NCBI GenBank assembly: GCA_036523395.1
Contig: DATDEH010000083.1
Span: forward strand, 1 to 53,685
Length of the DNA stretch: 53,685 bases
Direction: 5' to 3'
Source of the DNA: Candidatus Limnocylindria bacterium
GTDB lineage: Bacteria > Chloroflexota > Limnocylindria > P2-11E
The first letter of the stretch is position 1; each line of letters opens with the position of its first letter. The notes beneath the pieces are model-generated. The model did not search any database. It saw only the letters and a program-made list of their open reading frames with translations, and had not been told where the DNA came from. Below are positions 7,041 through 38,562 of this stretch, one piece after another. The position numbers and the translations under genes are program-made.

Positions 7041-8606
7041 ATGGACATCCTCAACGGATTCACGAGCACGCTGGGCAGCCTCGCCGGAGGCTTCGGCACA
7101 GCGCTCCATCCGATCAACCTGCTGCTCCTCACGATCGGCTGCTTCCTCGGTCTCGTCATCGGGGTCCTCCCGGGTCTCGGTGGGACGAGCGGTGTCGCCA
7201 TCCTGCTGCCGATCACGGTCTTCATCGCGAACACCGGTCCGGGCGGATCGACGAGCGCGGTCATCTTCCTCTGCGGCATCTACTGGGGCGCTCTGTTCGG
7301 CGGCGTCATCACCTCGATCTTGTTCAACATCCCCGGCGAGCCGTGGTCGGTCGTGCTTCTCTTCGACGGCTTCCCGCTCGCGAAGAAACTGGGCAAACCC
7401 GCGCTCGCACTATCGTCGTCGTTCTTCGCGTCGTTCATCGGAGCGTTCATCGCCACGGTCTTGTTCACGTTCTTCGCGCGCGCGCTCGCAGACGTGGCGC
7501 TCGCGTTCGGCCCGGCCGAGCTCTTCGCGGTCTTCATCATGTCGTTCGCGACGCTGATCGGACTCGGCTCGGAGTCGCCCGCGAAGAGCGTGATGATGAT
7601 CGGCTTCGGCCTGCTGCTTGCGGCCGTCGGGTTCGACACGCTCACCGGCGCCCCGCGCCTCACGTTCGGGCGCATCGAGATCCTTTCGGGCATCGGCTTC
7701 GTGCCGGTCACGATCGGACTCTTCGGGATGGGCGAGATCCTCGCGTCGGCCGAAGAGCAGGGCATCGGTTTCGTCGAGCGCCTCTCCGCGAAGGTCGGCC
7801 TCAAGGACATCCTCGAGACGCTGCGCGAGCTTCGTAAGCGCATCTGGACCGTGGTGATCACCGCCGTGATCGGTTTCTGGTTCGGCGTCCTCCCGGGCCA
7901 CGGCGCGACCGCGGGCTCGTTCCTCGGCTACGGCCTCGCGCGCCAGTACTCGAAGAACAAGGCGAACTTCGGCAAGGGCGAGATCACCGGCATCATGGCG
8001 CCGCAGGCGGCCGCCGACGCATCGGCGGTCGGGTCGCTCGTTCCGATGGTCGCGCTGGGTGTGCCGGGCTCGCCGACATCCGCCGTGATCATGGCCGGCC
8101 TCTTCATCTGGGGGCTGCAGCCCGGGCCGCTGCTCTTCATCGACCACCCGGATTTCGTGTGGGGCCTGACCGCGAGCATCTACCTCGGGCACCTGATCAC
8201 GTTCACGATGTGCCTGCTCGCGGTGCCGCTCCTCGCGAAGATCATGCACATCCCCTACGCGATCATCACGCCGTTCATCGTCATCATCTCGATCATCGGC
8301 TCATACTCGCTCAACAACAGCATGTTCGACGTGTTCATCACGATCACGTTCGGCTTCGTCGGCTACTGGCTGCGCAAGATGAAGTACCCGCTCGCCCCGC
8401 TCGTCGTCGCGATCGTGCTCGGCGACTCGACCGAGCGCGAGCTCCGGAAGGCACTCATCGCGAGCGGCGGCAGCCCGCTCATCTTCGTCGGCAGCCCGCT
8501 GGCCGCGACGCTGATGATCCTCGCGATCATCCTGCTGCTTCTGCCCGTCATCCGAAACGTGCGCGAGCGTCGCGCGCGACCCGTGTCCGTCGATCCAGCG
8601 GCGTGA
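7041..8606 (+). CDS. Tripartite tricarboxylate transporter large permease (TctA)
   Basis: A 521-residue permease with about twelve membrane segments that carries the substrate by secondary transport. The family motif GVLPGLGGTSGVAILLP is near residues 34-50, and an inverted second copy, GVLPGHGATAGSFLGYGLA, near 282-300, reflects the internal duplication of TctA. NIPGEPWS (about 97) and ALGVPGSPTSAVIMAG (about 337) also match. It overlaps the next gene by four bases (GTGA). Confidence 0.94.
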   Translation: MDILNGFTSTLGSLAGGFGTALHPINLLLLTIGCFLGLVIGVLPGLGGTSGVAILLPITVFIANTGPGGSTSAVIFLCGIYWGALFGGVITSILFNIPGEPWSVVLLFDGFPLAKKLGKPALALSSSFFASFIGAFIATVLFTFFARALADVALAFGPAELFAVFIMSFATLIGLGSESPAKSVMMIGFGLLLAAVGFDTLTGAPRLTFGRIEILSGIGFVPVTIGLFGMGEILASAEEQGIGFVERLSAKVGLKDILETLRELRKRIWTVVITAVIGFWFGVLPGHGATAGSFLGYGLARQYSKNKANFGKGEITGIMAPQAAADASAVGSLVPMVALGVPGSPTSAVIMAGLFIWGLQPGPLLFIDHPDFVWGLTASIYLGHLITFTMCLLAVPLLAKIMHIPYAIITPFIVIISIIGSYSLNNSMFDVFITITFGFVGYWLRKMKYPLAPLVVAIVLGDSTERELRKALIASGGSPLIFVGSPLAATLMILAIILLLLPVIRNVRERRARPVSVDPAA

Positions 8607-9688
8607 CGCCTCTCGACGTCGCGCTCATCGTCCTCGCGTTCGGGCTGATCCTCGTCGGCGCCGAGGTCTTCACCAACGGGATCGAGTGGCTAGGGATCAA
8701 GCTCAACATGTCCGAGGGCGCCACGGGCAGCATCCTCGCTGCGCTCGGCACCGCGACGCCGGAGACGCTCATCCCGGTCGTGGCGATCCTGTTCACCAAC
8801 ACGAGCGACTCCGATGAGATCGGCGTGGGGGCCATCCTCGGCGCGCCATTCATGCTCGCGACCCTGGTCATGCTCCTGATCGGCGTGACCGCATACGTCC
8901 TGCGTAAGCGGAGGGGCCGCGACACGCTCCGCGTGGACGCGGCGCACGCGTCACGCGACATGTCGTTCTTCCTCGTCCTCTATACGATCGCGCTCGGACT
9001 CGCGCTCCTGCCGCGCGACCTGCACTTCCTGAAGGGCTACCTCGGGTGGATCTTCCTGCCGGCGTACTTCCTCTATCTCTTCCTCGTCCTCCGGACGCCG
9101 AAGGTCACGCCTGAAGACGTCGAGGAGCAGGAGGAGGAGCACGAGGCGTTCGACGAGCTCACCTTCGCGACGCAGCTGCAGCGGTTCGGAGCGAGCATCG
9201 TGCCGACTGCCCCTCCGCTGTGGCTCGTGCTGGTACAAACGCTCGTCTCGTTCGGGGCGATCCTCCTGGGAGCGCGGTTCTTCGCGACCTTTGTCGAGGA
9301 CTTTTCGCATGCGATGCAGTTCAACACGCTTCTCGTCGCGCTGGTCCTCGCGCCCCTCGCGACGGAGCTGCCGGAGGCGGCGAACAGCCTGATCTGGACG
9401 AAGGACGGAAAGGACGTCATCGCGCTCGGCAACGTCGCGGGCGCGATGGTCTTCCAATCGACGATCCCGGTCACGATCGGAGTGCTGCTCACGCCCTGGG
9501 AGCTGGGGCGGTTCGGCACCATCGCCGCGGTGTTCGCCCTCCTGTCGGGCTTGCTGATCTGGATCCAGTTGCGTTTGCGCGCGCGCGACAACTCGCTGCC
9601 GCCGTCCTCTCTCATGCTCGGCGGAAGCCTGTACGTGGTCTTCCTCGTCTACGTGGTCTGGAGCGTCATCGCGGGGCTGCCAGCCTGA
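8603..9688 (+). CDS. Sodium/calcium exchanger family membrane protein
   Basis: A 361-residue cation antiporter-like protein with two repeats of five to six helices, as in the CaCA superfamily. The alpha-1 repeat reads GILAALGTATPETLIPVVAI (about 37-58) and alpha-2 reads LVLAPLATELPEAANSLI (about 249-266), carrying the acidic residues that coordinate the cation. An acidic loop (PEDVEEQEEEHEAFDE) joins the halves. GTG 8603 overlaps the tctA stop, so the gene probably belongs to the tct transcript and could supply or balance the cation used by the transporter. That functional link is inference. Confidence 0.88.
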   Translation: MTPLDVALIVLAFGLILVGAEVFTNGIEWLGIKLNMSEGATGSILAALGTATPETLIPVVAILFTNTSDSDEIGVGAILGAPFMLATLVMLLIGVTAYVLRKRRGRDTLRVDAAHASRDMSFFLVLYTIALGLALLPRDLHFLKGYLGWIFLPAYFLYLFLVLRTPKVTPEDVEEQEEEHEAFDELTFATQLQRFGASIVPTAPPLWLVLVQTLVSFGAILLGARFFATFVEDFSHAMQFNTLLVALVLAPLATELPEAANSLIWTKDGKDVIALGNVAGAMVFQSTIPVTIGVLLTPWELGRFGTIAAVFALLSGLLIWIQLRLRARDNSLPPSSLMLGGSLYVVFLVYVVWSVIAGLPA

Positions 9689-9775
9689 TCCCGCACACCT
9701 GACTAGAATCCCCGAATCGCGCTGTGAGCAGCTTCCAAGCGCCGCGCGACGATGAGAGGGAGGTCGGACGGACCA

Positions 9776-10765
9776 ATGAAACGTGTGCTCGCGATCTATG
9801 TTGCCGTCGCGCTCGTCTTTGCCGCCTGTGGCGTTATTCCCGGCACCGGTAGCTCGCTCAAGATCGGGATCGTCACCGACATCGGCCAGCTCGAGGACAA
9901 GTCGTTCAACGAGTTCTCCTGGAAGGGCGTCCAGGACGGCGCCAGCGCGATCGGCGCGCCGAAGCCGGTGGCGATCGTGACCAAGGACATCGCCGACTAC
10001 AAGCAGAATATCCAACAGCTCGTCGACCAGAAGTACGACATCATCGTGACAGTCGGATTCCTGATCAGCAGCGACACGCTTGCTGCCGCAAAAGCGAATC
10101 CGACGATCCAGTTCTTCGGCGTCGACCAGTTCATCGCCGACCCCGTGCCCGCCAACTATCAAGGTCTCTTGTTCAACGAGGCGCAGGCGGGCTACCTCGC
10201 CGGGATCGTCGCCGGCACCATCACGAAGAGCGGGAAGATCGGCGCGGTCGGCGGACGGTCGGACGTCCCGCCGGTCGTGAACTACATCAAGGGCTACGAG
10301 AACGGCGCGAAGTCGATCAAGGCCAACGTCCAGGTCAGCATCAACTACGTCGAGGACTTCAACGCTCCCGACAAAGGCGAGGCTTCGGCGAAGACGATGA
10401 TCGGCCAGGGTGTTGACGTCCTCTTCCAGGTCGCTGGCCTCACCGGTGCGGGCGTTCTGCGCGCCGCCTGCAACGCGAAGGTCTACGGCATCGGCGTCGA
10501 CGTTGACCAGTACCTGTCTCTTCCCGATTCGAAGGGCTGCATCATCACCAGCGCCGAGAAGCACCTGCAGAACGCGACGCGCGACGCGATCAAGCGCTTC
10601 AAAGACAAAGGCAAGCAAACGGGCAACTTCACCAACGACGCGACGAACGACGGTATCGGCGCGTCCGAGATCCGCAACCTAAGCCCGATCCCCGCGGGTC
10701 TGCAGGACAAGATCAAGCAGGCCACTGCGGATATGAAGTCGGGCAAGCTCAAGCCGATCCCGTGA
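9776..10765 (+). CDS. BMP-family substrate-binding lipoprotein of a nucleoside-type ABC importer
   Basis: A 329-residue lipoprotein. MKRVLAIYVAVALVFAACG is a signal peptide with lipobox, followed by the BMP domain: KIGIVTDIGQLEDKSFNE (about 28-45), the ligand-side GFLISSDTL and GQGVDVLFQVAGLTGAGVL. BMP proteins (PnrA, Med, YufN) bind nucleosides, sometimes other solutes. ATG 9776 has GGGAGGT upstream; a TAGAAT -10-like box at 9704-9709 gives a leader of about 60 nt. An intrinsic terminator directly follows, so this receptor would be made in excess over the ATPase and permeases. Confidence 0.92.
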   Translation: MKRVLAIYVAVALVFAACGVIPGTGSSLKIGIVTDIGQLEDKSFNEFSWKGVQDGASAIGAPKPVAIVTKDIADYKQNIQQLVDQKYDIIVTVGFLISSDTLAAAKANPTIQFFGVDQFIADPVPANYQGLLFNEAQAGYLAGIVAGTITKSGKIGAVGGRSDVPPVVNYIKGYENGAKSIKANVQVSINYVEDFNAPDKGEASAKTMIGQGVDVLFQVAGLTGAGVLRAACNAKVYGIGVDVDQYLSLPDSKGCIITSAEKHLQNATRDAIKRFKDKGKQTGNFTNDATNDGIGASEIRNLSPIPAGLQDKIKQATADMKSGKLKPIP

Positions 10766-10788
10766 TCCAGATCCGGTAAATGGGAAGG

Positions 10789-10823
10789 AAGCGGGCCGAC
10801 CACTCGGGTCGGCCCGCTTTGTT
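10789..10823 (+). terminator. Intrinsic terminator/attenuator inside the nucleoside ABC operon
   Basis: A perfect 13-bp stem (AAGCGGGCCGACC, 10789-10801, with its complement 10807-10819) with a 5-base loop runs into TTTGTT. It ends only about four bases before the ATG of the ATPase gene, so it both limits read-through and occupies the place of the next gene's SD. Confidence 0.85.
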
Positions 10824-12362
10824 ATGAGCGAAGAGACGCCGGTCCTCGAAATGCGCGACGTCAGTAAGCGCTTTCCGACCGGCACGCTCGCCACCGACGC
10901 GATCGATCTCGACCTCGGCCAGCGTGAGATCCACGCGCTCCTGGGCGAGAACGGGGCCGGGAAGTCAACGCTCATGAACATCCTCTATGGGCTGGTAGAG
11001 CCCGACTCGGGCGAGATCCGCATCGACGGCGCGGCAGTGACCATCCAGAGCCCGGCGGACGCCATCGCGCGTGGCATCGGCATGGTCCACCAGCACTTCA
11101 TGCTCGTGCCGGTCCTCTCCGTCGCGGAGAACGTCGTTCTAGGTCAGGAGATCACCCGCGGCGGACAGGTCCTCGATCTGGGCGCGGCCGAGCGCCGGAT
11201 CCAGGATCTCGCGGAACGGCTCGGGTTCACGATCGATCCGCATGCGCGCGTCGATCAGCTATCACTCGGCCAACAGCAGCGCGTCGAGATCCTGAAGGCG
11301 ATCTACCGGGGAGCGCGGATCCTGGTGCTCGATGAGCCGACGGCGGTACTGACGCCGCAAGAGACGCGTGAGATCTTCGGCGTGCTGCGCCGGCTTCGCG
11401 AGGACGGCACGAGCATCATCTTCATCAGCCACAAGCTCGACGAGGTCCTCGAGATCGCCGACCGGATCACCGTGATCCGCCGCGGCAAGGTCGTCGGCAG
11501 CCGAAAGCCGGCGGAGACGAACGAGAGCGAGCTCGCGGAGCTCATGGTCGGACGGGCCGTGTCGCTCCGCGTCGATCGCGGCCAGTCGCACGCCGGCGAG
11601 GTCGTCCTGGAGATCGCGGGGCTCCGCGCCACGGACGACCGACGCCGCGAGGTATGCAGTGGCGTCGATCTCACCGTCCGCGCAGGCGAGATCGTCGGCA
11701 TCGCGGGCGTCGGCGGCAACGGGCAGGACGAGCTCGTCGAGTGCATCGTCGGCATGCGAAAGCCCATCGCTGGGACGATCCGCATCGCGGGCCGCGATCT
11801 GACCCACCTCAGCGTTGACGCTCGACGGGATCTCGGCATCGCGTACGTGCCCGCCGACCGCCAGCGCTTCGGGCTGGTGCTTCCCTTCCGCCTTCCGGAC
11901 AACTTCGTGCTCACGCGTTACGCCGAAGCTCCCTATGCAGCGGGATTCGGTGGCTTCGTGCGCCAGGAGCGGCCGATCCGCGACGAGGCCAGTCGCCTGG
12001 CCAAGGAGTTCGACGTCCGGACGTCCTCCCTCGATGTCACGGCTGCCACGCTGTCGGGAGGCAACCAGCAGAAGGTGGTCGTGGCGCGCGAGTTCCGACA
12101 CGACCTGAAGGTGCTGGTCATCGACCAACCGACGCGCGGGCTGGACGTTGGCAGCGTCGAGTTCATTCACAAGCAGGTGATCGAGCGCCGCAACGCGGGC
12201 GTCGCGGTGCTTCTGGTCTCGGCCGAGCTCGACGAGGTGCTTGACCTCTCGGACCGCATCCTCGTGATGTTCCGCGGCCAGATCGTGGGGAGCTTCGCCG
12301 CGGCTGAGGTCCAGCGTGAAAAGGTCGGGCTCCTCATGGCGACCGGCCAGGCGCGCGCGTGA
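10824..12362 (+). CDS. Duplicated ATPase of a nucleoside/simple-sugar ABC importer (YufO-like)
   Basis: A 512-residue protein with two fused ATPase domains. The first has Walker A LLGENGAGKST (about 39-49), signature LSLGQQQR (about 146-153) and Walker B VLDEPTAVLT. The second has the degenerate P-loop GIAGVGGNGQDEL (about 293-305), signature LSGGNQQK (about 410-417) and VIDQPTRGLD. This is typical of CUT2/BMP-type importers. The ATG has no SD because the terminator stem lies directly upstream; initiation may depend on read-through or a leaderless message. It overlaps the permease by four bases. Confidence 0.94.
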   Translation: MSEETPVLEMRDVSKRFPTGTLATDAIDLDLGQREIHALLGENGAGKSTLMNILYGLVEPDSGEIRIDGAAVTIQSPADAIARGIGMVHQHFMLVPVLSVAENVVLGQEITRGGQVLDLGAAERRIQDLAERLGFTIDPHARVDQLSLGQQQRVEILKAIYRGARILVLDEPTAVLTPQETREIFGVLRRLREDGTSIIFISHKLDEVLEIADRITVIRRGKVVGSRKPAETNESELAELMVGRAVSLRVDRGQSHAGEVVLEIAGLRATDDRRREVCSGVDLTVRAGEIVGIAGVGGNGQDELVECIVGMRKPIAGTIRIAGRDLTHLSVDARRDLGIAYVPADRQRFGLVLPFRLPDNFVLTRYAEAPYAAGFGGFVRQERPIRDEASRLAKEFDVRTSSLDVTAATLSGGNQQKVVVAREFRHDLKVLVIDQPTRGLDVGSVEFIHKQVIERRNAGVAVLLVSAELDEVLDLSDRILVMFRGQIVGSFAAAEVQREKVGLLMATGQARA

Positions 12363-13504
12363 AAGTCTGGCGCACGCAGCTCGCCCCGACCTGGTCGAAG
12401 GCATCGGTCCCCGTTTATTCGATCGTCCTCGCGTTCGCAGTGGCCGCCGTCGTCGTCATCGTGTCGAGCGCTTTCACCGAGACCGGCTTCGACCCGCTGC
12501 TCCCGTTCGCCGCGTACGCCCGTTTGCTCGCCGGATCGTTCGGAAGCGGCAACGCCATCGCGAACACGCTGGTGTCCGCCGCCCCGCTGATGTTCGGCGG
12601 TCTCGCGGTCGGCCTCGGATTGAAGGCCGGCCTCTTCAACATCGGGGTCGCCGGACAGTTCCTCGTCGGGGCGTTCGCCGCGGCGGTTGCGGGCGCGTCG
12701 CTCGCCACCGCGCCGACGATCGTCGGCATGCCGCTCGCCATGCTCGCCGGCGCGTTCGCCGGCGCGGCGTACGGCTTCGTACCCGGTTACCTCAAAGCGC
12801 GTACCGGCGCGCACGAGGTCGTGACGACCATCATGCTCAACAACGCAGCCGCGCTGCTGCTCACGTGGGCGGTCAACGACCTCGTACGCGCGCCGGGCTT
12901 CTCGTTCCCGCGGACCGCCGACATCGGGCAGAGCGCCCTCCCGATCCTCGCCGGTCGCAACCTGCACCTCGGCATCGTCTTCGCGGTGGCCGCCATCTTC
13001 GTGATCCGCTGGATCCTCGACCGCACCGTCCTCGGCTTCGAGATCCGCACCGTCGGCACGAACCCCAACGCCGCGCGATACGCGGGCATGCGGCCGATCT
13101 TCATCACCGCGCTCACGATGACGATCTCCGGTCTCCTCGCGGGTCTCGCCGGTGCGATCCAGATGCTCGGCGTCATCGGCTTTTACGCGCCGGGCATCAC
13201 CGCATCGGTCGGCTTCGACTCGATCGCGGTCGCGTTGCTGGGCCGATCCGATCCGATCGGCATCCTGTTCGCGGCGCTCCTCTTCGGCGCATTCCGCGCC
13301 GGCGCGCCGCTCATGCAGATCGAGACCAGCGTGCCGATCGAGGTGATCGACATCATCCAGGCGCTGGTCATCCTGTTCCTCGCTGCGGACGTCATCGTGC
13401 GGAAGGTCTTCCGCGTGCGCGCGCCGAAGGTCGAGATCACGGAAATGGCGACGGTGACGGGGTCCTGGGGCACGGGCACGCCACCGCCTGGATCGGCACG
13501 CTGA
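12359..13504 (+). CDS. ABC importer permease 1 (YufP-like)
   Basis: A 381-residue permease of the branched-chain/nucleoside class with about nine hydrophobic segments. Family features are GLAVGLGLKAGLFNIGVAGQFLVGAF (about 80-105), TGAHEVVTTIMLNN (about 149-162) and VGTNPNAARYAGMRPIF (about 233). GTG start overlaps the ATPase stop (GTGA). The C-terminal tail after the last helix is soluble (VRKVFRVRAPKVEITE). Confidence 0.93.
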   Translation: MKVWRTQLAPTWSKASVPVYSIVLAFAVAAVVVIVSSAFTETGFDPLLPFAAYARLLAGSFGSGNAIANTLVSAAPLMFGGLAVGLGLKAGLFNIGVAGQFLVGAFAAAVAGASLATAPTIVGMPLAMLAGAFAGAAYGFVPGYLKARTGAHEVVTTIMLNNAAALLLTWAVNDLVRAPGFSFPRTADIGQSALPILAGRNLHLGIVFAVAAIFVIRWILDRTVLGFEIRTVGTNPNAARYAGMRPIFITALTMTISGLLAGLAGAIQMLGVIGFYAPGITASVGFDSIAVALLGRSDPIGILFAALLFGAFRAGAPLMQIETSVPIEVIDIIQALVILFLAADVIVRKVFRVRAPKVEITEMATVTGSWGTGTPPPGSAR

Positions 13505-14538
13505 TGGATCTGCTCGCCGTACCGCGGCTCATCTGGGAGTTCCTGGTCTACCTCTTCACGGTGATGCCGGACCTGCTGCCGATCATCCTCTCGCTTGCGA
13601 CACCGCTCGCCCTGGGCGCGCTCTGCGGCGTGCTCGGCGAACGGTCCGGCGTCGTGAACATCGGCATCGAGGGCATCATGCTCATGGCCGCGTTCTTCGG
13701 CTACCTCACCGGTTTCGCACTGCATGAGCCGCTCGGGACCGGTGTCGCGCTCGCGCTCGGCATCGTGGTCGCCGTCGCCACCGGAGCACTCCTTGGGCTT
13801 CTGTACGCGTGGCTCACGGTGACCGTGCGCGCGGATCAGATCATCGCCGGCACGATGATGAACATCGCCGCCTTCGGTATGACGGGCTATCTCAACCGCC
13901 TCGTCATCACGCCGTCCGGCCGCGGAGGCGCCGGCGTGATCACGCCGTTCCATTTGCCGGACCAGCTCGCCGCCATACCATTCCTCGGCCCGATCCTCGC
14001 GATGTTCCTCGACCAGGGGCCGATCGCTATGAGCGTCATCGTGCTCGTCCTTGTTTCGCAGTTCGCCCTGTTCCGCACGCGGTGGGGACTCCGCACCCGC
14101 GCCGTCGGCGAGCATCCAAAGGCCGCGGACACCGTCGGCATCAACGTCTTCCGCCAGCGCTACATGAACGTGATCATCGGCTGTGCCATCGCCGGTCTCG
14201 CGGGCGCGTACCTCACCCTCGAGTCGACCGGCTCGTTCCAGAACGGCATGACCAACGGGCGCGGCTTCATCGCGCTTGCCGCGGTGATATTCGGACGCTG
14301 GACTCCGGTGGGTGCGTTCCTCGGGGCGCTCCTGTTCGGCACCGCCACGGCCTTCGGCATCATCGTCAACGTCCGGCCGGCCGAGGGGGATCTCGGCGCG
14401 CTCATGAAGTCGATCCCGACGTTCTGGTACGCGGCCCTTCCCTACCTCATCACGGTCGTGATCCTGGCCGGCGTGGTCGGCCGGTCGACCCCGCCGGCTG
14501 CCGATGGCATCCCGTACGCGAAAGAGGGCAAGGGCTAG
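13504..14538 (+). CDS. ABC importer permease 2 (YufQ-like)
   Basis: A 344-residue partner permease, starting at an ATG that shares one base with the previous stop (TGATG). It carries the paralogous motifs ERSGVVNIGIEGIMLMAAF (about 45-63), RADQIIAGTMMNIAAFG (about 110-126) and RAVGEHPKAADTVGINV. Together with permease 1, the duplicated ATPase and the BMP receptor it completes one importer. The longer open frame upstream runs antiphase through permease 1 and is rejected. Confidence 0.93.
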   Translation: MDLLAVPRLIWEFLVYLFTVMPDLLPIILSLATPLALGALCGVLGERSGVVNIGIEGIMLMAAFFGYLTGFALHEPLGTGVALALGIVVAVATGALLGLLYAWLTVTVRADQIIAGTMMNIAAFGMTGYLNRLVITPSGRGGAGVITPFHLPDQLAAIPFLGPILAMFLDQGPIAMSVIVLVLVSQFALFRTRWGLRTRAVGEHPKAADTVGINVFRQRYMNVIIGCAIAGLAGAYLTLESTGSFQNGMTNGRGFIALAAVIFGRWTPVGAFLGALLFGTATAFGIIVNVRPAEGDLGALMKSIPTFWYAALPYLITVVILAGVVGRSTPPAADGIPYAKEGKG

Positions 14539-14552
14539 GCCGGGCGGACCCT

Positions 14553-14611
14553 TTGACGGCTCCTCCTAACCGTCGTAGCCTCTTGTCCGTTCTGGTCAGA
14601 CCACCTGACCA
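14553..14611 (+). promoter_or_regulatory. Promoter with overlapping GntR/FadR-type operator
   Basis: TTGACG (14553-14558) and TAGCCT (14576-14581) are separated by exactly 17 bases. Starting 12 bases after the -10 box is TGGTCAGACCA (14593-14603), a perfect TGGTC-A-GACCA palindrome of the form used by FadR-subfamily regulators, followed by a further TGACCA (14606-14611). The position at about +5 suits autorepression of the GntR-oxidoreductase operon. Confidence 0.75.
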
Positions 14612-14630
14612 GCCATTGGGGAGGTCCGAA

Positions 14631-15332
14631 CTGGCCGTCATCGAGCCCATACGGCGCAGCAGGCTCTACCAGAGCATCGTCGAGCAGATCGAGTCGCTCC
14701 TGGAGAAGGGCGAGCTTCGGCCGGGCGATCAGCTCCCGCCCGAGCGCGCGCTCGCCGAGCAGTTCCAGGTGTCGCGCGCCTCCGTCCGCGAGGCGCTCCG
14801 AACCCTCGAGCTCCTCGGCGTCATCGAGACCCACGCCGGCGGCGGCACGTTCGTCCGTCAGGTGGCACCGGACGATCTCGTGCGCCCGCTGCACAGCCTC
14901 ATCGCCCGTGGTCACAGCGTCCCCGATGTGATCGAGTTCCGCGGCCTCATCGAGCCGGCACTCGCCGCGCTCGCTGCGACGCGCATCAGCGACGCGCAGC
15001 TGGCCGAGCTCCGCGAGATCCTCGCGGCTCAGGAGCGGAAGGTCGCCGCGGGCGAGACGTACGTGGAAGAGGACACGCGCTTCCACGAGGTCATCGGCGA
15101 CGCCGCGAAGAACGAGCTCCTCACGACGATGCTCGCGGTCATCTGGGACGTCCTCCGCGCATCGCGCGAGCAGTGGCTGCAGACGAACCAGCGCGCGCAC
15201 ACATCTCTCGACGCGCACCGCCGAATCCTTGACGCACTCTCCCGCCACGACGTCGAGGGCGCGCGGACCGCATCGGCTGAGCACATCCGCGCCGTCGGCG
15301 AAGGCATCCTGAAGCTCCTTGGAGGTAAATGA
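14631..15332 (+). CDS. GntR-family regulator, FadR subfamily
   Basis: A DNA-binding repressor of about 233 residues. The N-terminal winged helix contains RLYQSIVEQIESLLEKGELRPGDQLPPERALAEQFQVSRASVREALRTLELLG, the GntR signature. The C-terminal FCD domain (about 85-225) has Asp/His candidates for a metal site (EEDTRFHEVIG, DAHRRILDAL). The start is unusual: GGGGAGGT sits 6 bases before CTG 14631, while in-frame TTG 14616 overlaps that SD and TTG 14583 is only two bases past the -10 box. It overlaps the oxidoreductase gene (ATGA). FCD regulators usually sense carboxylic acids, fitting its operators at the tct and own promoters. Confidence 0.88.
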   Translation: MAVIEPIRRSRLYQSIVEQIESLLEKGELRPGDQLPPERALAEQFQVSRASVREALRTLELLGVIETHAGGGTFVRQVAPDDLVRPLHSLIARGHSVPDVIEFRGLIEPALAALAATRISDAQLAELREILAAQERKVAAGETYVEEDTRFHEVIGDAAKNELLTTMLAVIWDVLRASREQWLQTNQRAHTSLDAHRRILDALSRHDVEGARTASAEHIRAVGEGILKLLGGK

Positions 15333-16510
15333 TGGCTGAGGAACGCAGCGTTTCCATCGAGGTCGTGTACCGGGGCATCTTCCAGAAGACGCTGGCGCAG
15401 CGCATCTGCCGTTCGGTCGTGCTCGCCGCACGCAAGCGAGGACACACCGGCACGGCATTCGCGCGCTACGGGGACTCGCCGGAACGCAACGGGGTGCCGG
15501 CGAAGCAGTTCGCTGTCGTTGCCGCCGACGAGCTCGAGCTCGAGGCCTCGATGGCGAAGTACGAGCCGAGCGTCGTGGACGTGAGCATCGCCGTCGATGA
15601 CACGCTCGTGAAAGGCGTTGAGTCGTGGGCCTGGTACGGGCGCCAGCCGATCTGGAAGCCCGTACGCGCGAACGGCTGGCTCCTAGTCACGAGCGACAAG
15701 AAACCCGACGAAGTGCTGGCGCAGACCGACAAGGCGGAGCGACCGTACACGCTTGGGATCGTCCCGGGGGGCGCATCGTTCGCCGGACTCTGGGTCTACA
15801 AGGACGACCACACCGACTTCCGCGTGCTCGGAGCGCTCGCCAAGATCCTCCCGCAGTGGATCGCCCTCGACGACGCGAAGGCCGCCTCTCTCGAGCTCGC
15901 GAAAGGTGACCAGTCCGCCGTCGCATCGGTCCAATACGGCTACGACGCGACGACGATGCGCCGGGTCAAGGACGGCGAGGGAACGAGCGGCCACGAGGTA
16001 CTGCAGTTCAAGAAGCCCGGCTGGACCAAGATGCGACCGGGGGTCATCGTCGAGGCCCGCAAGCCCGGCGAACGCAACCCGTATTACAAGAAGTACGGGG
16101 CCCGCACGATGCGGCCGGTCGTGAACTTCGACACGTGCATCAAGTGCACGATGTGCTGGCTCGACTGCCCGGACGAATGCTTCGAGGTCACGCCCGAGGG
16201 CCATTACGAGGTCGTGTACGAGGCTTGCATCGGCTGCGGCATCTGCGCGCAGGTCTGCCCGGTGAAGGACTGCATCGTCATGGTCGACGAGCTCAAATTC
16301 ACTGACAACAAGGACAAGTGGCAGCTCTGGAAGACGGATCACTCCAAATACAACTCGTGGTTCGAGGACATGAGCGGCGTGTCGGCCGACCCGAAGAAGG
16401 GCGCGTCCGGCAGCGTCCCACCGAACGCGAACCCCGCCGCCAACGCGGCGACGAATCCAGGTGCGGACCCTGCGGCGAATCCCACGACTTCGGCGGGAGG
16501 TGACGAGTAA
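15329..16510 (+). CDS. 2-oxoacid:ferredoxin oxidoreductase, fused gamma and delta subunits
   Basis: A 393-residue subunit. Residues 1 to about 190 form the gamma (2-oxoacid:acceptor oxidoreductase) domain. Residues about 255-320 are a 2x[4Fe-4S] ferredoxin with CIKCTMCWLDCP and CIGCGICAQVCP, which takes electrons from the catalytic subunits. The tail is Asn/Ala/Pro-rich low-complexity sequence of unknown role. A strong GGAGG precedes ATG 15329 (a second ATG follows at 15332), and the start overlaps the GntR stop. The fusion order gamma-delta is common in pyruvate and branched-chain oxoacid enzymes. Confidence 0.92.
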   Translation: MMAEERSVSIEVVYRGIFQKTLAQRICRSVVLAARKRGHTGTAFARYGDSPERNGVPAKQFAVVAADELELEASMAKYEPSVVDVSIAVDDTLVKGVESWAWYGRQPIWKPVRANGWLLVTSDKKPDEVLAQTDKAERPYTLGIVPGGASFAGLWVYKDDHTDFRVLGALAKILPQWIALDDAKAASLELAKGDQSAVASVQYGYDATTMRRVKDGEGTSGHEVLQFKKPGWTKMRPGVIVEARKPGERNPYYKKYGARTMRPVVNFDTCIKCTMCWLDCPDECFEVTPEGHYEVVYEACIGCGICAQVCPVKDCIVMVDELKFTDNKDKWQLWKTDHSKYNSWFEDMSGVSADPKKGASGSVPPNANPAANAATNPGADPAANPTTSAGGDE

Positions 16511-17745
16511 TGGCAGTCGAGGTCAAGACCAAAGAAACGAATGAGATCGAGACCGAGCAGCTCGCGACGGGCTGCGAGGCCATCGCCGAGGCCATCCGGC
16601 TGGCTGACGTCGACGTTATGGCCGCATACCCGATCCGCCCGTACGACGGCGTGATGCAGGCGGCAGCGAAGCTCATCGCCAACGGCAAGATGGACGTCGA
16701 GTACATCGTCGCCGACGGAGAGCACAGCCAGTTCGAGATCGTGAAGCACGCCTGCGCGGTTGGTGCGCGAGTGTTCGTCGGCTCGTCGGGCGTCGGCTGG
16801 TTCTACGCTTTTGAGGCGATCGCGGTCACCGCGGGCCTGCGCCTACCGGTCGTGGCGATCTGCGGCAACCGCGCCCTCGATGACCCCGGCGCGTTCGGCA
16901 CCGAACACAACGACTCGCTCGCGGTGCGCGACCTCGGCTGGCTTCTGCCGTGGGCCGAGACGGCGCAGGAAGCACTCGACCTCGCGCTCATGGCCTGGCG
17001 CGTCGCCGAGGACAAGCGCGTGTCGCTCCCGGTCGCGATCGGGCTCGACGGCGCCTTCCTCACCCACTCGCAGCACATCGTGAAGATCCCGACACAAGCT
17101 GCGGTCGACAGGTTCCTGCCCAAGTTCGACCTCGGCGACCGCCTGCTGCACCCGGACAACCCGATCACCATCGCGCCGCAGGTCGACCAGGACTGGCTCA
17201 TGGAGATCCGGCGCCAGAACGACGCGGCGATGCGCAATGCGCTCGGCGTGATCCGCGAGGCGCACGCGGACTTCAAGAGGATCTTCGGCCGCGGCGGCGA
17301 GAGCCCGTTCCTCGACGAGTACATGACCGACGACGCCGAAGTCGTCGTCATCGGCCAGGGGACGCTCTCGCTCCCGATGAAGGTCGCGATCCGCCGTCTG
17401 CGGAAGGAGCGCGGCCTCAAGATCGGTCTCGTCCGCCTCAAGTGGTTCCGGCCGTTCCCGACCGAGGAGGTCGTGAAGAGCCTCCGCAGGTTCAAGGCCG
17501 TCGGCGTCATCGACCGCGACTACAGCTTTGGCTCGCCGTATTACGGCGGCGTCCTCTACAACGAGATCCGCTCAGCGCTGTACTCACAGGAGAAACGCCC
17601 GGTCATCGTCGGGTTCATCGCGGGACTCGGCGGTCGCGAGATCGAGCAACCGATGGCGACCGAGATCTTCGAGAAGACCATGGCAGCCGGCAAGGGCGAC
17701 CTCGCCGCCGGCGACACGTGCCATTGGATCGGCGTACGGGAGTAA
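16510..17745 (+). CDS. 2-oxoacid:ferredoxin oxidoreductase alpha subunit
   Basis: A 411-residue subunit with the pyrimidine-binding domain at the N-terminus (ATGCEAIAEAIRLADVDVMAAYPIRPYDG, about 19-45, then EYIVADGEHSQFEIVKHACAVGARVF) and the C-terminal domain with VVIGQGTLSLPMKVAIRRL and FRPFPTEEV. With the beta subunit it forms the thiamine diphosphate active site that decarboxylates a 2-oxo acid and makes an acyl-CoA. The Glu of ADGEHS is the candidate cofactor-activating residue. The start overlaps the previous stop (TAATG). Substrate (pyruvate, 2-oxoisovalerate or other) cannot be read. Confidence 0.9.
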   Translation: MAVEVKTKETNEIETEQLATGCEAIAEAIRLADVDVMAAYPIRPYDGVMQAAAKLIANGKMDVEYIVADGEHSQFEIVKHACAVGARVFVGSSGVGWFYAFEAIAVTAGLRLPVVAICGNRALDDPGAFGTEHNDSLAVRDLGWLLPWAETAQEALDLALMAWRVAEDKRVSLPVAIGLDGAFLTHSQHIVKIPTQAAVDRFLPKFDLGDRLLHPDNPITIAPQVDQDWLMEIRRQNDAAMRNALGVIREAHADFKRIFGRGGESPFLDEYMTDDAEVVVIGQGTLSLPMKVAIRRLRKERGLKIGLVRLKWFRPFPTEEVVKSLRRFKAVGVIDRDYSFGSPYYGGVLYNEIRSALYSQEKRPVIVGFIAGLGGREIEQPMATEIFEKTMAAGKGDLAAGDTCHWIGVRE

Positions 17746-17748
17746 GAG

Positions 17749-18804
17749 ATGACGACTGAGATCATGCCCGCCCAGGACCTGCCACAGATCAAGGGGGTCA
17801 AGGACGTCCCGTACGACGAGCTCTTCGTCTCGGGCCACCGCACCTGTCAGGGCTGCGAGTCCGCGCTCGTGATGCGGCACATGGTGAAGGCATCGGGCCC
17901 GCGCACGATCGTGCTGGGGTCGACCGGCTGCATGTACGTCGCGAACACGACGTACTACACGACACCATGGGTCGTGCCGTGGATGCACACGCAGCTCGGC
18001 GCGTCCGGGTCCGCGGCGCTCGGCACCGCGGCCGGTCTCAAGGTGCTGATGCGCAAGGGAAAACTGAAGAACGAGAAGATCAACGTCATCGCGTTCTGCG
18101 GCGACGGCGGTGGCGCCGACATGGGCATCGGTGCGATCTCCGCCACCCTCACGCATAAGGACTACAACTGCCTCGTCCTGCTGTACGACAACGAGTCGTA
18201 CGCGAATACCGACATCCAGCTGTCGAGCCAGACGCCGTACGGCGCGGTCACGACGTTCTCGCCTTCGGGCGATAAGAAGCGGCTTATGCACACGCGCTGG
18301 AAGAAGAACGTGCCTGGCATGCTCGCGGCCGGTCATCCGGAATCCCGCTACATCGCGGCAGGATGCGCCGCGTACGCCGTGGATCTCATGAACAAGATCC
18401 GCAAGGCGCTCGAGCTCGGCGGGCCCACGTTCGTGCACACGCTCGACCCGTGCCCGAAGGGTTGGGACTATCACCCGCAGTACAGCCAGGAGCTCGGCCA
18501 CCTCGCCGTGGAGACCGGGATCTGGCCGCTGTACGAAGTCGTCGACGGCGTGTGCAACCTCACCGGCCCGACGCGTCAGATCGCGGAGGGTCGCAAGAAG
18601 CGCAAGCCGGTGTATGAGTACCTGAAGCGGCAGGGCCGCTTCGCGCACTTCATCGACGAGGACGTCGAGCACTTCCAGGCGCAGGTCGACAAGATGTGGA
18701 CGGACTGGCTCATTCCCGGCGTGATCCCCTTCACCGTGCCGGCGAAGGACGTTGCGATCCTGAAGATCGACAAGAAGCCCATGCACGAGCAGAAGACCGC
18801 GTAG
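17749..18804 (+). CDS. 2-oxoacid:ferredoxin oxidoreductase beta subunit
   Basis: A 351-residue subunit binding the diphosphate of thiamine diphosphate through FCGDGGGADMGIGAISATL and the following YDNESYANT (about 117-160). RTCQGCESALVMR (about 31-43) supplies cysteines for the intrasubunit [4Fe-4S] cluster, together with later Cys residues in GSTGCMYVANT and DPCPKGWDY. Three bases separate it from the alpha gene. A terminator follows, so this closes the GntR-operator operon. Confidence 0.92.
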   Translation: MTTEIMPAQDLPQIKGVKDVPYDELFVSGHRTCQGCESALVMRHMVKASGPRTIVLGSTGCMYVANTTYYTTPWVVPWMHTQLGASGSAALGTAAGLKVLMRKGKLKNEKINVIAFCGDGGGADMGIGAISATLTHKDYNCLVLLYDNESYANTDIQLSSQTPYGAVTTFSPSGDKKRLMHTRWKKNVPGMLAAGHPESRYIAAGCAAYAVDLMNKIRKALELGGPTFVHTLDPCPKGWDYHPQYSQELGHLAVETGIWPLYEVVDGVCNLTGPTRQIAEGRKKRKPVYEYLKRQGRFAHFIDEDVEHFQAQVDKMWTDWLIPGVIPFTVPAKDVAILKIDKKPMHEQKTA

Positions 18805-34988: not shown

Positions 34989-35027
34989 ATGAGCCGGGGT
35001 GAACGGGTTCCCGCGCCCTTTCGTTAG
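34989..35027 (+). CDS. Twelve-codon leader ORF directly before the sigma factor gene
   Basis: ATG 34989 begins MSRGERVPAPFR and stops at TAG 35025-35027; the next triplet is the GTG start of the sigma gene in the same frame. TAGCGT (34976-34981) lies seven bases before the ATG with no SD, so the uORF would be translated from a leaderless message and the sigma gene reached by reinitiation. No conservation data are available. Confidence 0.4.
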   Translation: MSRGERVPAPFR

Positions 35028-35660
35028 GTGAAGCAAGGCGACGCCGACGTGGCAGTAGGCCGGGCGCGCCCTGTCGACCTGACAGGAGGTGAGGCCGGAA
35101 CCGATGGAGCGCTCGTTCGCGCAGCGAAGTCCGGGGACGCCTCTGCGTTCGGTGAGCTCTACGAGCGCTACCGCGACGCGATCTACCGCTACTGCCTCTC
35201 TCGGACGGGTACGGCGCACGACGCCGAGGACCTCACGTCGGACGTGTTCGTGAAGGCGCTGCACTCGATCGACCGGTACCAGGAGCGCGGGCTTCCGTTC
35301 GTCGCGTTCCTTTACCGCATCGCGCGCAACGCCGCGATCGACCGCGCACGCACCATGAAGCAGCCACTGTCTGTAGACGAGCTCGTGACCGAGCCCGCGT
35401 CGCGGCAGAACGTCGAAGCCGACGCGACGCTCGCCGTCGACCGCAGCATCCTCCTCGCGGCGCTCACAAAGCTGAAGCCCGAGCATCGCGACGTCATCGT
35501 CATGCGCTTCATCGAGGGTTACAGCGCGCTCGAAGTAGCCGCGGCGCTGGGCAAGACCGAAGGGGCGGTGCGCACGCTGCAGCACCGCGCGCTCGAGCGA
35601 CTGCGCAAGGAATTCGACGACGCGCAGCGCGATATGGCGCGCAAGGGCCAACGCTCATGA
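35028..35660 (+). CDS. ECF-type RNA polymerase sigma factor
   Basis: A 210-residue alternative sigma factor. Region 2 spans about 35-100: ASAFGELYERYRDAIYRYCLSR, AEDLTSDVFVKALHSIDRY, FVAFLYRIARNAAIDRAR. Region 4 spans about 140-195: LTKLKPEHRDVIVMRFIEGYSALEVAAALGKTEGAVRTLQHRALERLRK. No sigma-3 region. The first 30 residues are poorly conserved and GTG 35049 is an alternative start. It overlaps the anti-sigma-like gene (ATGA), a layout typical of ECF pairs. Target promoters are unknown; the exported repeat proteins that follow are natural candidates. Confidence 0.92.
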   Translation: MKQGDADVAVGRARPVDLTGGEAGTDGALVRAAKSGDASAFGELYERYRDAIYRYCLSRTGTAHDAEDLTSDVFVKALHSIDRYQERGLPFVAFLYRIARNAAIDRARTMKQPLSVDELVTEPASRQNVEADATLAVDRSILLAALTKLKPEHRDVIVMRFIEGYSALEVAAALGKTEGAVRTLQHRALERLRKEFDDAQRDMARKGQRS

Positions 35661-36547
35661 ACGACGACAAACTCGTTGGCCTGCTGTCCGCGCTGCGGAC
35701 CGAGCGGATGGAGCGCACCGCCGACCAGAAGCTGCGCGCGCGGCTCGAGAACGCGTGGACCGTCCGCGAGAACCAAAGCGGGCTCGCGTGGCGTGCGCGC
35801 CGGCCGGTGTTGGTCATCGCCACGGCCGCGCTCGTGCTCGGCAGCATCGCCACGACGCTCTCGGCTCCTGGCGACAGCGCGCTCTACACGCTGCGTGTGA
35901 CGATCGAGGACCTCGCGATCCAGCTGCACAGGGATCCGGAAGACCGCGCCGAATACCTCGTGTCGCTGCTCGAGCAGCGGACCGCCGAAGCGGCACGGCT
36001 CGAGGCGACGGGCAATGCGCTCGCGGCGAGTCACGCGCGAGACATCGAACGCGACACGCTCCGCATGGTCCAGCAGAACCTCCCGGTCGCGCCCGAGGTC
36101 GTTGAGCCGGCGCCGACGGAGTCTCCGTCGCCGAGTCCGACGCCATCGCCTACGCCGTCACCGACTCCATCACCCGCCCCGACCGCCACGCAGCGTCCAG
36201 CAACACCGCGGCCGACCACGGCGCTGACGAGCGCGCCACCGACCGCGACGGCGACTCCGCGACCGACGACGGCCGCGACGCCGCAGGCGGTCAGCTTCGC
36301 CGGCGCGGTGAAGAACCCTGACGGCACGTACGCGACCAACGTGTGCATACAGTTGAGCCCGAATATGTCGTGCTTGACGGTGACCTCGTCCGCTACTTTC
36401 CGGGTCACTTTCTCCGCAAAGATCGGACAATCAGTGACCCTGAACTTCACTCGGTCGGACGGGATCAAGACCTACAAGGCGACGATCACCAAGACGGTGA
36501 CGAGCACATACATGGATGTCGGGATCGTCCTGCTCAGGGTGCAGTGA
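35657..36547 (+). CDS. Probable membrane-bound anti-sigma partner with PST-rich linker and C-terminal beta domain
   Basis: A 296-residue single-pass protein. Residues 1-47 are cytosolic and charged (LVGLLSALRTERMERTADQKLRARL), then one membrane helix (about 50-70). A DUF5667-like helical segment (about 72-130, PGDSALYTLRVTIEDLAIQLHRDPEDRAEYLVSLLEQR) follows. A long Pro/Ser/Thr linker with SPTP repeats (about 145-215) leads to an Ig-like C-terminal domain (SFAGAVKNPDGTYATNVCIQLSP). Overlap with the sigma gene and topology suggest it holds the sigma factor and senses an external signal; direct evidence is lacking. Confidence 0.78.
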   Translation: MNDDKLVGLLSALRTERMERTADQKLRARLENAWTVRENQSGLAWRARRPVLVIATAALVLGSIATTLSAPGDSALYTLRVTIEDLAIQLHRDPEDRAEYLVSLLEQRTAEAARLEATGNALAASHARDIERDTLRMVQQNLPVAPEVVEPAPTESPSPSPTPSPTPSPTPSPAPTATQRPATPRPTTALTSAPPTATATPRPTTAATPQAVSFAGAVKNPDGTYATNVCIQLSPNMSCLTVTSSATFRVTFSAKIGQSVTLNFTRSDGIKTYKATITKTVTSTYMDVGIVLLRVQ

Positions 36548-36624
36548 CCGCGCGTTAGGGGCTCAGTACCGCACTGGTACTTCCGGGTCTGTAAGGTCAG
36601 CGCCCACCCCTCGTTCTCAGGACC

Positions 36625-37263
36625 ATGAAGGTTTTCAGCACGCTCATCATGGCGACCCTTGCCCTGGCGTTGGTCCTGGTCGCGAGCGCATCCGCGGCGA
36701 CCGTCGGTGGTGGGGCGGCTGTCGTCAGCCCGAATGGACCCGACGAGTTCGGTCGAGCGTGGGCCGCATGCCTCGAGACCAGGGACGCAAACAGCGACGA
36801 GTGCTACCGCGCGCAAGAGCTGAGCGGGCTTGCACCCGACGAGTTCTTCGACAAGCTGACGCGCAAGCTGGAGCTGCTCGCCGAGCAGCCCAAACCCGAG
36901 AAGAAGCCGGACGCGTGGGCGCTCATGAAGGAATGCGCCGGCACACGCGATCTCGAGAGCGACGCGTGCCGCCGTTTCATCGACGCGACCGGCCTCAGCG
37001 GCGACGAGGTCGCTCGCCTCGCCGATGGCCTGGCCTCGCCACGTAGCGAGCATACGGCGACCGCCGACAAGAAGAACAGCACGACCGCGATGACCGACAC
37101 GATGCAGGCCTGCGTCGATCTCCGTTCCGAGATGAAGGGTCGGCAATCGGTGGAGGAGCTGAGCGCACTCGCCGAGAAGATCAACTCCGTCTGCCCGAAA
37201 GCGATCAAAGAGTCACGGTTAACGCCCGGCCAGTTCTGGGCGAAGTTCGCCGCCTACCGATAG
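36625..37263 (+). CDS. Secreted protein with three paired-cysteine repeats
   Basis: A 212-residue exported protein. MKVFSTLIMATLALALVLVASASA is a signal peptide. Three units follow, each with two Cys and a SGL/SRL-x-EF-like end: C49-C60 then ELSGLAPDEFFDKL; C104-C115 then IDATGLSGDEVARL; C163-C190 then IKESRLTPGQFWAKFAAYR. The last unit closely matches the last unit of the 37431 product. No family recognised. 77 bases after the anti-sigma gene, followed by a hairpin that is repeated after the paralogue. Confidence 0.78.
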   Translation: MKVFSTLIMATLALALVLVASASAATVGGGAAVVSPNGPDEFGRAWAACLETRDANSDECYRAQELSGLAPDEFFDKLTRKLELLAEQPKPEKKPDAWALMKECAGTRDLESDACRRFIDATGLSGDEVARLADGLASPRSEHTATADKKNSTTAMTDTMQACVDLRSEMKGRQSVEELSALAEKINSVCPKAIKESRLTPGQFWAKFAAYR

Positions 37264-37287
37264 TTCCTCTCCCCCTCCCCGCGACGT

Positions 37288-37320
37288 GAACAGCGCGTCC
37301 CCGTCCAGGACGCGCTGTTC
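37288..37320 (+). terminator. Hairpin, copy 1 of a duplicated terminator-like element
   Basis: GAACAGCGCGTCC (37288-37300) pairs perfectly with GGACGCGCTGTTC (37308-37320) around seven bases. The flanks CTCCCCGCGACGT and CATGT are shared with copy 2 at 38513. The downstream sequence CATGTTC lacks a clear T-run. Confidence 0.65.
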
Positions 37321-37430
37321 CATGTTCAGGTCCGACGTCCGGAGTAGCACCGTCGGGGGAGACATGACCGAGAGCACGAACCGTTCTGAGTGGCAAGGAC
37401 CACACACCGGGTCCATGGAAAGGAACGAAA

Positions 37431-38489
37431 GTGCTCTGGTACATCTTCAGCGCGCTATCCCTGGCCCGGCACGCGGTAGTCCTCACGCTCATCGCAGGCG
37501 CCGCCGCGACAACGATGGTGGCCGGTTCCGTAGATCAGATCGGAACGCAGGTCCAGCAACAGACGGCGCCGACCACCGCATCTTTCGCGCCCACGAGCAA
37601 GCCGGAGCCGACGGCCAAGCCGGAGCCGACGGCCAAGCCCGATGAGGCTCCCGTCATCACCTCGCAGTCAACGACGCCCGAGGTGAGCGCGAGACCGCAG
37701 ACAACAACGCGGAACATCGACACGCTCGTCAAGGATTGCCTCACCAAGTACGCCGCCGTGAAGACGAGCCCGACCGCGGGGACGGCCGCCTCCGAGGCAT
37801 GCCGCGGTGCGATCGAAGCCTCAGGCCTGACGTCGGCCGAGTTCTGGGGTCGGTTCGGTCCGAAGGTGGAGCCAACGACGCAGCCCCAGAAGCCAACGAC
37901 AGATCTCGACGCGCTCGTCAAGGAGTGCCTCGGCAAATACGCCGCCCTCAAGACGAATCCGACTGCGGGGACCGCGGCGTCTGACGCGTGCCGTCGCGCC
38001 ATCGAGGCGTCGGGCCTCACGTCGACCGAGTTCTGGATGCGGTTCGCTCCGAAGGTTGAGCCGAGCACCGCTCCCGTGGGACCCTCGACGTCTGCTTCGG
38101 CGAAGCCATCCAACCCTACGACGAACATCGAGTCGCTCGTGAAGGACTGCTTCGCGAAGTACATCGCCGCGAAGGACAGCTCCACGGGCGGGACGGCCGC
38201 GTCGGAGGCATGCCGTCGCGCGATCGAGGCGTCCGGTCTGAGCGCGACCGAGTTCTGGGCCAGGTTCGGGACGCCGCAGGCTCCGAAGTCGACGCCCAAG
38301 GCCACCGCCACACCGACCACGAAGGAGCTGACCCAGCTGACCCGGTATTGCCTGACGATGCACGCCGCGCTGACCACGACATCGAGCTCTGAGCAGGTCG
38401 AGCGGACGACCACGGTCTGCAACCAGGCGATCGCGGAGTCAAGGCTCACGCCTACGGAGTTCTGGTCGAAGTTCTCCGCCAACCGGTAG
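37431..38489 (+). CDS. Exported protein with four paired-cysteine tandem repeats
   Basis: A 352-residue protein: N-terminal hydrophobic helix (about 13-32, signal or anchor), Pro/Thr linker with TAKPEP duplicates, then four units of about 60-75 residues. Each has DxLVKxCxxKYAAxK, GTAASxACRxAIEASGLTxxEFWxRF and a Pro/Thr spacer. Cysteine pairs are 103/124, 166/187, 240/261 and 307/330. No known family recognised. The even Cys pairing and export suggest disulfide-bonded helical modules facing outward. GTG start with GGAAAGG upstream. Confidence 0.8.
   Translation: MLWYIFSALSLARHAVVLTLIAGAAATTMVAGSVDQIGTQVQQQTAPTTASFAPTSKPEPTAKPEPTAKPDEAPVITSQSTTPEVSARPQTTTRNIDTLVKDCLTKYAAVKTSPTAGTAASEACRGAIEASGLTSAEFWGRFGPKVEPTTQPQKPTTDLDALVKECLGKYAALKTNPTAGTAASDACRRAIEASGLTSTEFWMRFAPKVEPSTAPVGPSTSASAKPSNPTTNIESLVKDCFAKYIAAKDSSTGGTAASEACRRAIEASGLSATEFWARFGTPQAPKSTPKATATPTTKELTQLTRYCLTMHAALTTTSSSEQVERTTTVCNQAIAESRLTPTEFWSKFSANR
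37713..38483 (+). repeat. Four tandem protein-coding repeats
   Basis: Units begin at about 37713, 37902, 38124 and 38325. The first three are close in amino-acid sequence (GTAASEACRGAIEASGL-like cores); the fourth is diverged and matches the C-terminal unit of the 36625 gene, implying that both genes derive from a shared ancestor with internal duplication of the inner units. Confidence 0.82.
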
Positions 38490-38512
38490 GTCCTCCGCCC
38501 TCCCCGCGACGT

Positions 38513-38543
38513 GAACAGCGCGTCCCTCCAGGACGCGCTGTTC
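38513..38543 (+). terminator. Hairpin, copy 2 of a duplicated terminator-like element
   Basis: The same 13-bp stem as copy 1 (38513-38525 with 38531-38543), but with a five-base loop. It ends seven bases before the TAGCAT box of the PFK gene, so it insulates the repeat gene from the next promoter. Confidence 0.65.
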
Positions 38544-38562
38544 CATGTCTAGCATTGGGTCC

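Follow-up and report, generated by a model that had tools for sequence, protein, structure and literature searches.

A BldN-like sigma factor locus in uncultured Limnocylindria with predicted exported proteins built from a small, cysteine-paired three-helix module

The stretch of DNA analyzed here (the window; 53,685 nucleotides of contig DATDEH010000083.1, assembly GCA_036523395.1, from a Candidatus Limnocylindria bacterium of the phylum Chloroflexota) carries a gene for a BldN-like extracytoplasmic function (ECF) sigma factor, an overlapping gene for a single-pass membrane partner that is probably its anti-sigma factor, and two further genes, rep1 and then rep2, that follow on the same strand and encode predicted exported proteins assembled from a repeated unit with two cysteines. 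The features of the locus, including predicted promoters and 3' hairpins, are listed in Table 1.

Table 1. Features of the sigma/partner/repeat locus in window coordinates.
Feature	Position	Strand	Basis
Predicted ECF promoter of sigma, TGAAC-N17-CGTT	35000..35025	+	Two-box motif; rank 1 of 107,370, training-set member
ECF sigma factor, BldN-like	35028..35660	+	Pfam Sigma70_r2 1.2e-19, r4 2.7e-15; start codon uncertain
Membrane partner, probable anti-sigma factor	35657..36547	+	DUF5667 3.6e-9; 14 orthologues aligned
DUF5667 domain of partner	35873..36028	+	Pfam (PF18915), 37.4 bits against a gathering cut-off of 27
C-terminal outer domain of partner, possibly Ig-like (carboxypeptidase-regulatory-like)	36284..36544	+	Weak profile match, cysteine pair invariant
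Predicted ECF promoter of rep1, TGTAA-N17-CGTT	36590..36615	+	Rank 8 of 107,370, sigma-only matrix
rep1, predicted exported protein, three units	36625..37263	+	Unit profile; no Pfam/NCBIfam match
rep1 unit 1, short form C-x10-C	36742..36864	+	Unit alignment; three helices in model
rep1 unit 2, short form	36913..37032	+	Unit alignment; rep1 model
rep1 unit 3, long form	37084..37257	+	Unit alignment; rep1 model
Strong hairpin 3' of rep1, probably a terminator or 3' end	37284..37325	+	-27.1 kcal/mol, z -7.1
Weak promoter variant before rep2, GACA-N17-CGTT	37361..37385	+	Missed by strict pattern; rank 38 of 107,370
rep2, predicted exported protein, four units, Pro/Thr/Lys-rich linkers, GTG start	37431..38489	+	Unit profile, homology to rep1
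rep2 unit 1	37710..37862	+	Unit alignment; AlphaFold2 pLDDT 92.9, three helices
rep2 unit 2	37899..38051	+	Unit profile and alignment
rep2 unit 3	38124..38276	+	Unit profile and alignment
rep2 unit 4	38322..38483	+	Unit profile and alignment
Second hairpin copy, after rep2	38509..38548	+	-27.7 kcal/mol, z -6.5

The defining feature of the two downstream proteins is their repeat, and a profile built from its units recovers the three copies in rep1 and four in rep2 that the initial annotation had counted. Aligned with those of relatives, 27 units span 46 profile positions that include two invariant cysteines and a C-terminal motif, A-x3-SGL-x4-FW, and in a second, overlapping set of 31 units from eight genomes both cysteines are again invariant, which together with the homology of rep1 to rep2 (E 6e-13) places the repeat far beyond chance. 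Between the cysteines lie 10 residues in short units and up to 30 in long ones, such that the C-x(10-26)-C spacing first proposed describes the window and is exceeded among relatives. Cysteine counts, taken from the chosen start codon, are even in all 17 proteins checked (6 to 14 each), and units 1-3 of rep2 are also apparent in the DNA as a 179-nucleotide direct repeat with 71-78% identity. The final units of rep1 and rep2, initially described as almost identical, share 21 of 54 aligned residues (39%), mostly within the last 23, and the near-identical part is instead the DNA immediately 3' of both genes. A classical Sec signal with the cleavage site ASASA-AT opens rep1, and a hydrophobic stretch follows the GTG start of rep2; read from these N-termini, both proteins are predicted to be exported, as originally suggested. 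In three rep1-like proteins (L072, L074, L077) an insert of repeated CASxSNxDxxNPC elements separates units.

An AlphaFold2 model of rep2 unit 1, generated with 31 alignment rows, consists of three helices (predicted local distance difference test score, pLDDT, 92.9) with one cysteine in helix 1 and the other in helix 2; a single disulfide presumably closes each three-helix module. The full-length rep1 model, built from three sequences, reached a pLDDT of 65; given this low confidence it served for the helix count only. Searches of Pfam, NCBIfam, PHROGs, PDB sequences, PDB folds and viral folds yielded nothing convincing for the repeat, with fold searches reaching at best E 9.9 in the PDB and E 2.3 among viral models, a weak result expected at such small size, and no relative was detected in viral contigs and plasmids. 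The best PDB profile match, a designed helical repeat protein, scored E 0.0012 over the whole chain with no stretch below 0.8 and was judged compositional. A helix-turn-helix identity was likewise rejected: AIEASGLSATEFW briefly resembles helix-turn-helix families (PF22495, phrog_17513), but HTH_92 stays below its Pfam cut-off (25.1 bits over 17 residues, with 27 required), no phrog stretch passes alone, and the repeat protein carries both an export signal and cysteines of the disulfide type. Neither rep1 nor rep2 matches the chaplin or rodlin Pfam families at E 1. The profile search having returned no characterized domain, in agreement with the initial annotation, the repeat unit is a previously undescribed family of small three-helix modules.

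The sigma gene encodes sigma-70 regions 2 (44-109) and 4 (145-194) and no others, with the short linker between them that is characteristic of the ECF group. A profile of 15 relatives matches most closely, among PDB entries, BldN from the BldN-RsbN complex (6dxo_A, 1.7e-39), followed by SigW (8e-28), and the protein misses the cut-off of the NCBIfam BldN family TIGR02952 (132 against 206 bits), indicating a relative of BldN that is not filed as BldN itself. Its GTG at 35028 follows the -10 box of the promoter predicted for sigma by only 3 nucleotides, making the true start uncertain. In sigma genes of the sister genus, g2 (L058, L060, L062-L067), no ATG, GTG or TTG occurs from the in-frame stop to a codon within the conserved ALV motif, and at g2 sigma loci a conserved five-codon open reading frame (ORF; ATG CCN CGG AGC CCG TAG/TAA) directly precedes the open frame.

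The partner ORF begins within the sigma stop codon, such that the two ORFs share 4 nucleotides. Its product starts with some 50 cytoplasmic residues and continues through the single transmembrane segment noted initially, DUF5667 and a Pro/Thr stalk to a beta domain at the C-terminus. The two cysteines of this last domain are invariant across 14 orthologues. Its proposed Ig-like nature finds a weak counterpart, as the domain aligns at E 0.05 with the Ig-like N-domain of a SusC homologue (9hfj), its only outside match apart from low-complexity ones; relative to such carboxypeptidase-regulatory-like/SusC N-domains, the invariant cysteine pair is an addition here. RsbN-type (class III) anti-sigma factors bind sigma 4 and sigma 2 through a three-helix cytoplasmic domain. 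The zinc-type class I signature Hx3Cx2C is not found in the partner, in which cysteine and histidine are absent before the transmembrane segment, and this motif is also missing from many class I anti-sigma factors (PMC7406223). Membrane proteins of the same domain pattern, read by eye, adjoin other BldN-like sigma factors in Chloroflexota and candidate phyla. We infer an anti-sigma function for the partner from the gene overlap, the topology and this recurring BldN-like sigma/DUF5667-type pairing, and not from homology to a proven anti-sigma factor. No paper mentioning DUF5667 was found in the literature collection searched. The same genome encodes two more DUF5667 proteins above the cut-off (G000:C122:77536-77805 and C122:19680-20009).

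The repeat is narrowly distributed. Of 177 genomes examined from the class, 14 were positive with the unit profile, all from two genera of one family (four of five genomes in the genus of the window and ten of eleven in its sister genus), and 400 sampled genomes of the phylum Chloroflexota, to which sampling was confined, contained no further one. Among the negatives, G012 is uninformative because its sigma gene is cut by a contig end (L241). The relatives, located by a sigma-alignment scan of named genomes, are Chloroflexi metagenome-assembled genomes, most of them labelled 20-40 cm, which we read as soil depth. A repeat gene lies directly 3' of the sigma/partner pair in eight genomes (G000, G014, G015, G001, G002, G006, G008, G011) and behind the partner in G007, where sigma was not detected on the short contig, giving adjacency in 9 of 16 genomes, or 10 of 16 with G013, whose halves occupy separate contigs (L068, L070), each flanked as the window would predict. 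A contig-end piece in G005 matches only the N-terminal part of rep2 and, holding no unit, was excluded from this count. Neighborhood conservation, which the initial annotation had proposed to check, holds across two genera, and in seven sister-genus genomes a rep1-like gene resides elsewhere in the genome (L071-L077).

This adjacency, and the occurrence of cysteine pairs on both sides, would also be consistent with a signaling role, in which the repeat proteins dock onto the partner's outer domain and exert feedback on the release of sigma, instead of serving as bulk surface material. We consider such a role unlikely: the outer domain is retained where no repeat gene adjoins (L064-L067) and in G010, where none was detected at all, which lends no support to a ligand function, and most g2 genomes have a repeat gene far from the partner and with a predicted promoter of its own.

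A shared predicted promoter links the sigma factor and the repeat genes. Sequences upstream of 14 sigma orthologues share the blocks TG-N-A and CGTT, 18 nucleotides apart, and the resulting two-box motif TG[ATC]AC-N17-CGTT (TGNAY-N17-CGTT), with 17 nucleotides between AC and CGTT, precedes all 14. ECF promoters are described as having (A)AC at -35, CGT at -10 and autoregulation (PMC8103513), a pattern matched by each of these predicted sites, and a Streptomyces sigma-E target has the same 17-nucleotide spacing, GGGAAC-17-CGTT (PMC6767563). The motif is likewise found before 9 of 11 rep1-like and 6 of 8 rep2-like genes, compared with 3.4% of 155-nucleotide background windows. As the motif first came to notice when sigma and repeat genes were viewed together by eye, this count alone is not unbiased, and a fairer test used a matrix derived from sigma sites only, ignoring spacer letters and permitting a spacing difference of one base in either direction; we ourselves chose, once only, the background composition, the weighting of sequences and a penalty of two bits for a changed spacing. 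With this matrix the site 5' of the unlinked repeat gene ranks first in six of seven loci (7,600-17,900 positions) and 24th in the seventh, L077, and in six sigma-linked loci, most of which also hold a sigma training site, the repeat-gene site ranks first to third. Two of the four repeat genes lacking the motif (L069 and L070, in G015 and G013) begin close behind the previous gene and may be co-transcribed with it. The pattern search in the sister genus also matched G004:C316, where a truncated gene at the contig end proved by protein search to be a rep1 relative. Eighteen further pattern-match regions from both genera, a part of the matches, were inspected by eye; most sites fell inside ORFs and no common gene family emerged, which we read as a small regulon.

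Since even unlinked repeat genes carry the ECF-type promoter of sigma, they appear to be an output of this sigma factor, as the initial annotation had guessed; this control is the best-supported step of our reading and is well supported in silico. For rep2 of the window the promoter is at most a weak candidate. The degeneracy of the motif, and the comparison of sites among related genomes, could instead reflect a mere neighborhood of separate transcription units, in which CGTT is a general promoter feature of GC-rich genomes, but the low background frequency, the first ranks of unlinked sites within whole loci and the lack of a shared gene family among the inspected matches make this very improbable.

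The DNA just 3' of rep1 and that just 3' of rep2 are near-identical (29 of 29 and 24 of 25 nucleotides) and fold as strong hairpins, a likeness that points to a tandem duplication or to gene conversion at the 3' end. In G014 the hairpin after rep1 displays, by eye, a paired A-to-G / T-to-C change. The ATG at 38545 of the adjoining phosphofructokinase gene overlaps the rep2 hairpin, and a GTG at 38563 (MKRRIGILTGGG) better fits its relatives. Repeat mRNA leaders (37386-37430; L057-L063, L071-L077) often contain a short GGACC...GGTCC-type stem just past the predicted start site; compared with shuffled sequences, only one tested leader folded better at p<0.05.

High ratios of nonsynonymous to synonymous substitution (dN/dS) are usual for surface proteins. 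Between G000 and G014, rep1 (0.26) and rep2 (0.30) have the highest values of eight genes compared, above a neighboring peptidase-like gene (0.23), the partner (0.18) and sigma (0.08). Fast evolution in small disulfide modules, and the extra cysteine-rich insert of some relatives, would also suit secreted effectors under sigma control, whether small antagonistic proteins or binders of metals or other ligands. Such effectors seem improbable given that no toxin or binding family was matched and that long Pro/Thr/Lys linkers with variable module number better suit scaffolds; no immunity gene was noticed, in the course of work that included no systematic search for one.

Taken together, we consider it fairly probable that a BldN-like sigma factor, held at the membrane by its partner, drives its own operon and exported three-helix-module proteins that are likely envelope material. 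Sigma would be kept inactive at the membrane by the DUF5667 protein of the overlapping gene, which crosses the membrane once and would expose its stalk and beta domain to the outside; freed by an outside signal, sigma would transcribe the operon it belongs to and a regulon of very few genes, mainly those of the module proteins. With their Pro/Thr/Lys-rich spacers and variable module number, these proteins would most likely act as structural or adhesive components of the envelope or its surface. By analogy with the output of BldN, such a surface function is the most likely one, and of all steps it has the least support. The gene order, the homology, the module fold, the invariant cysteine pair and the shared promoter are computational results; the anti-sigma identity of the partner, the disulfides, export, the signal and the surface function are inferred from them. 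Several observations weigh against the proposal: no repeat gene lies beside sigma in G003, G004, G009 and G010 (4 of 11 g2 genomes), and the unit profile detected none anywhere in G010; the partner has no detectable sequence match to RsbN or any other solved anti-sigma factor; the window's rep2 has a weak promoter variant (rank 38 of 107,370); and the genomes are related, such that promoter and gene-order counts are not independent trials. A bolder and doubtful extension is that a lineage-specific coat of Pro/Thr-strung modules is the main output of sigma, an independent counterpart of the chaplin/rodlin programme.

For uncultured soil bacteria, the locus defines a new family of exported modules together with a regulator, a promoter and a very small regulon, all predicted. 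It also supplies a BldN-like sigma factor that has a DUF5667 partner with an output that can be tested. Should the module proteins form a coat or adhesin, BldN-like switches would drive surface proteins beyond Actinobacteria.

Among known systems, the BldN-like sigma/DUF5667-type pairs of Chloroflexota and candidate phyla have close genes, one transmembrane segment and a GDxLYxxKxxxE-type domain just outside the membrane; they differ in that the few paralogue partners seen are without the cysteine-pair beta domain and no repeat units were detected at their loci. In Streptomyces, sigma-BldN drives chaplin and rodlin genes, with RsbN encoded next to it (PMC4255298). The output here is instead a cysteine-paired helical repeat, and the partner is not matched by RsbN, whereas the resemblance lies in the nearest solved sigma factor, in a single-pass partner encoded adjacent to it and in the exported coat proteins that the BldN output includes (PMC4255298).

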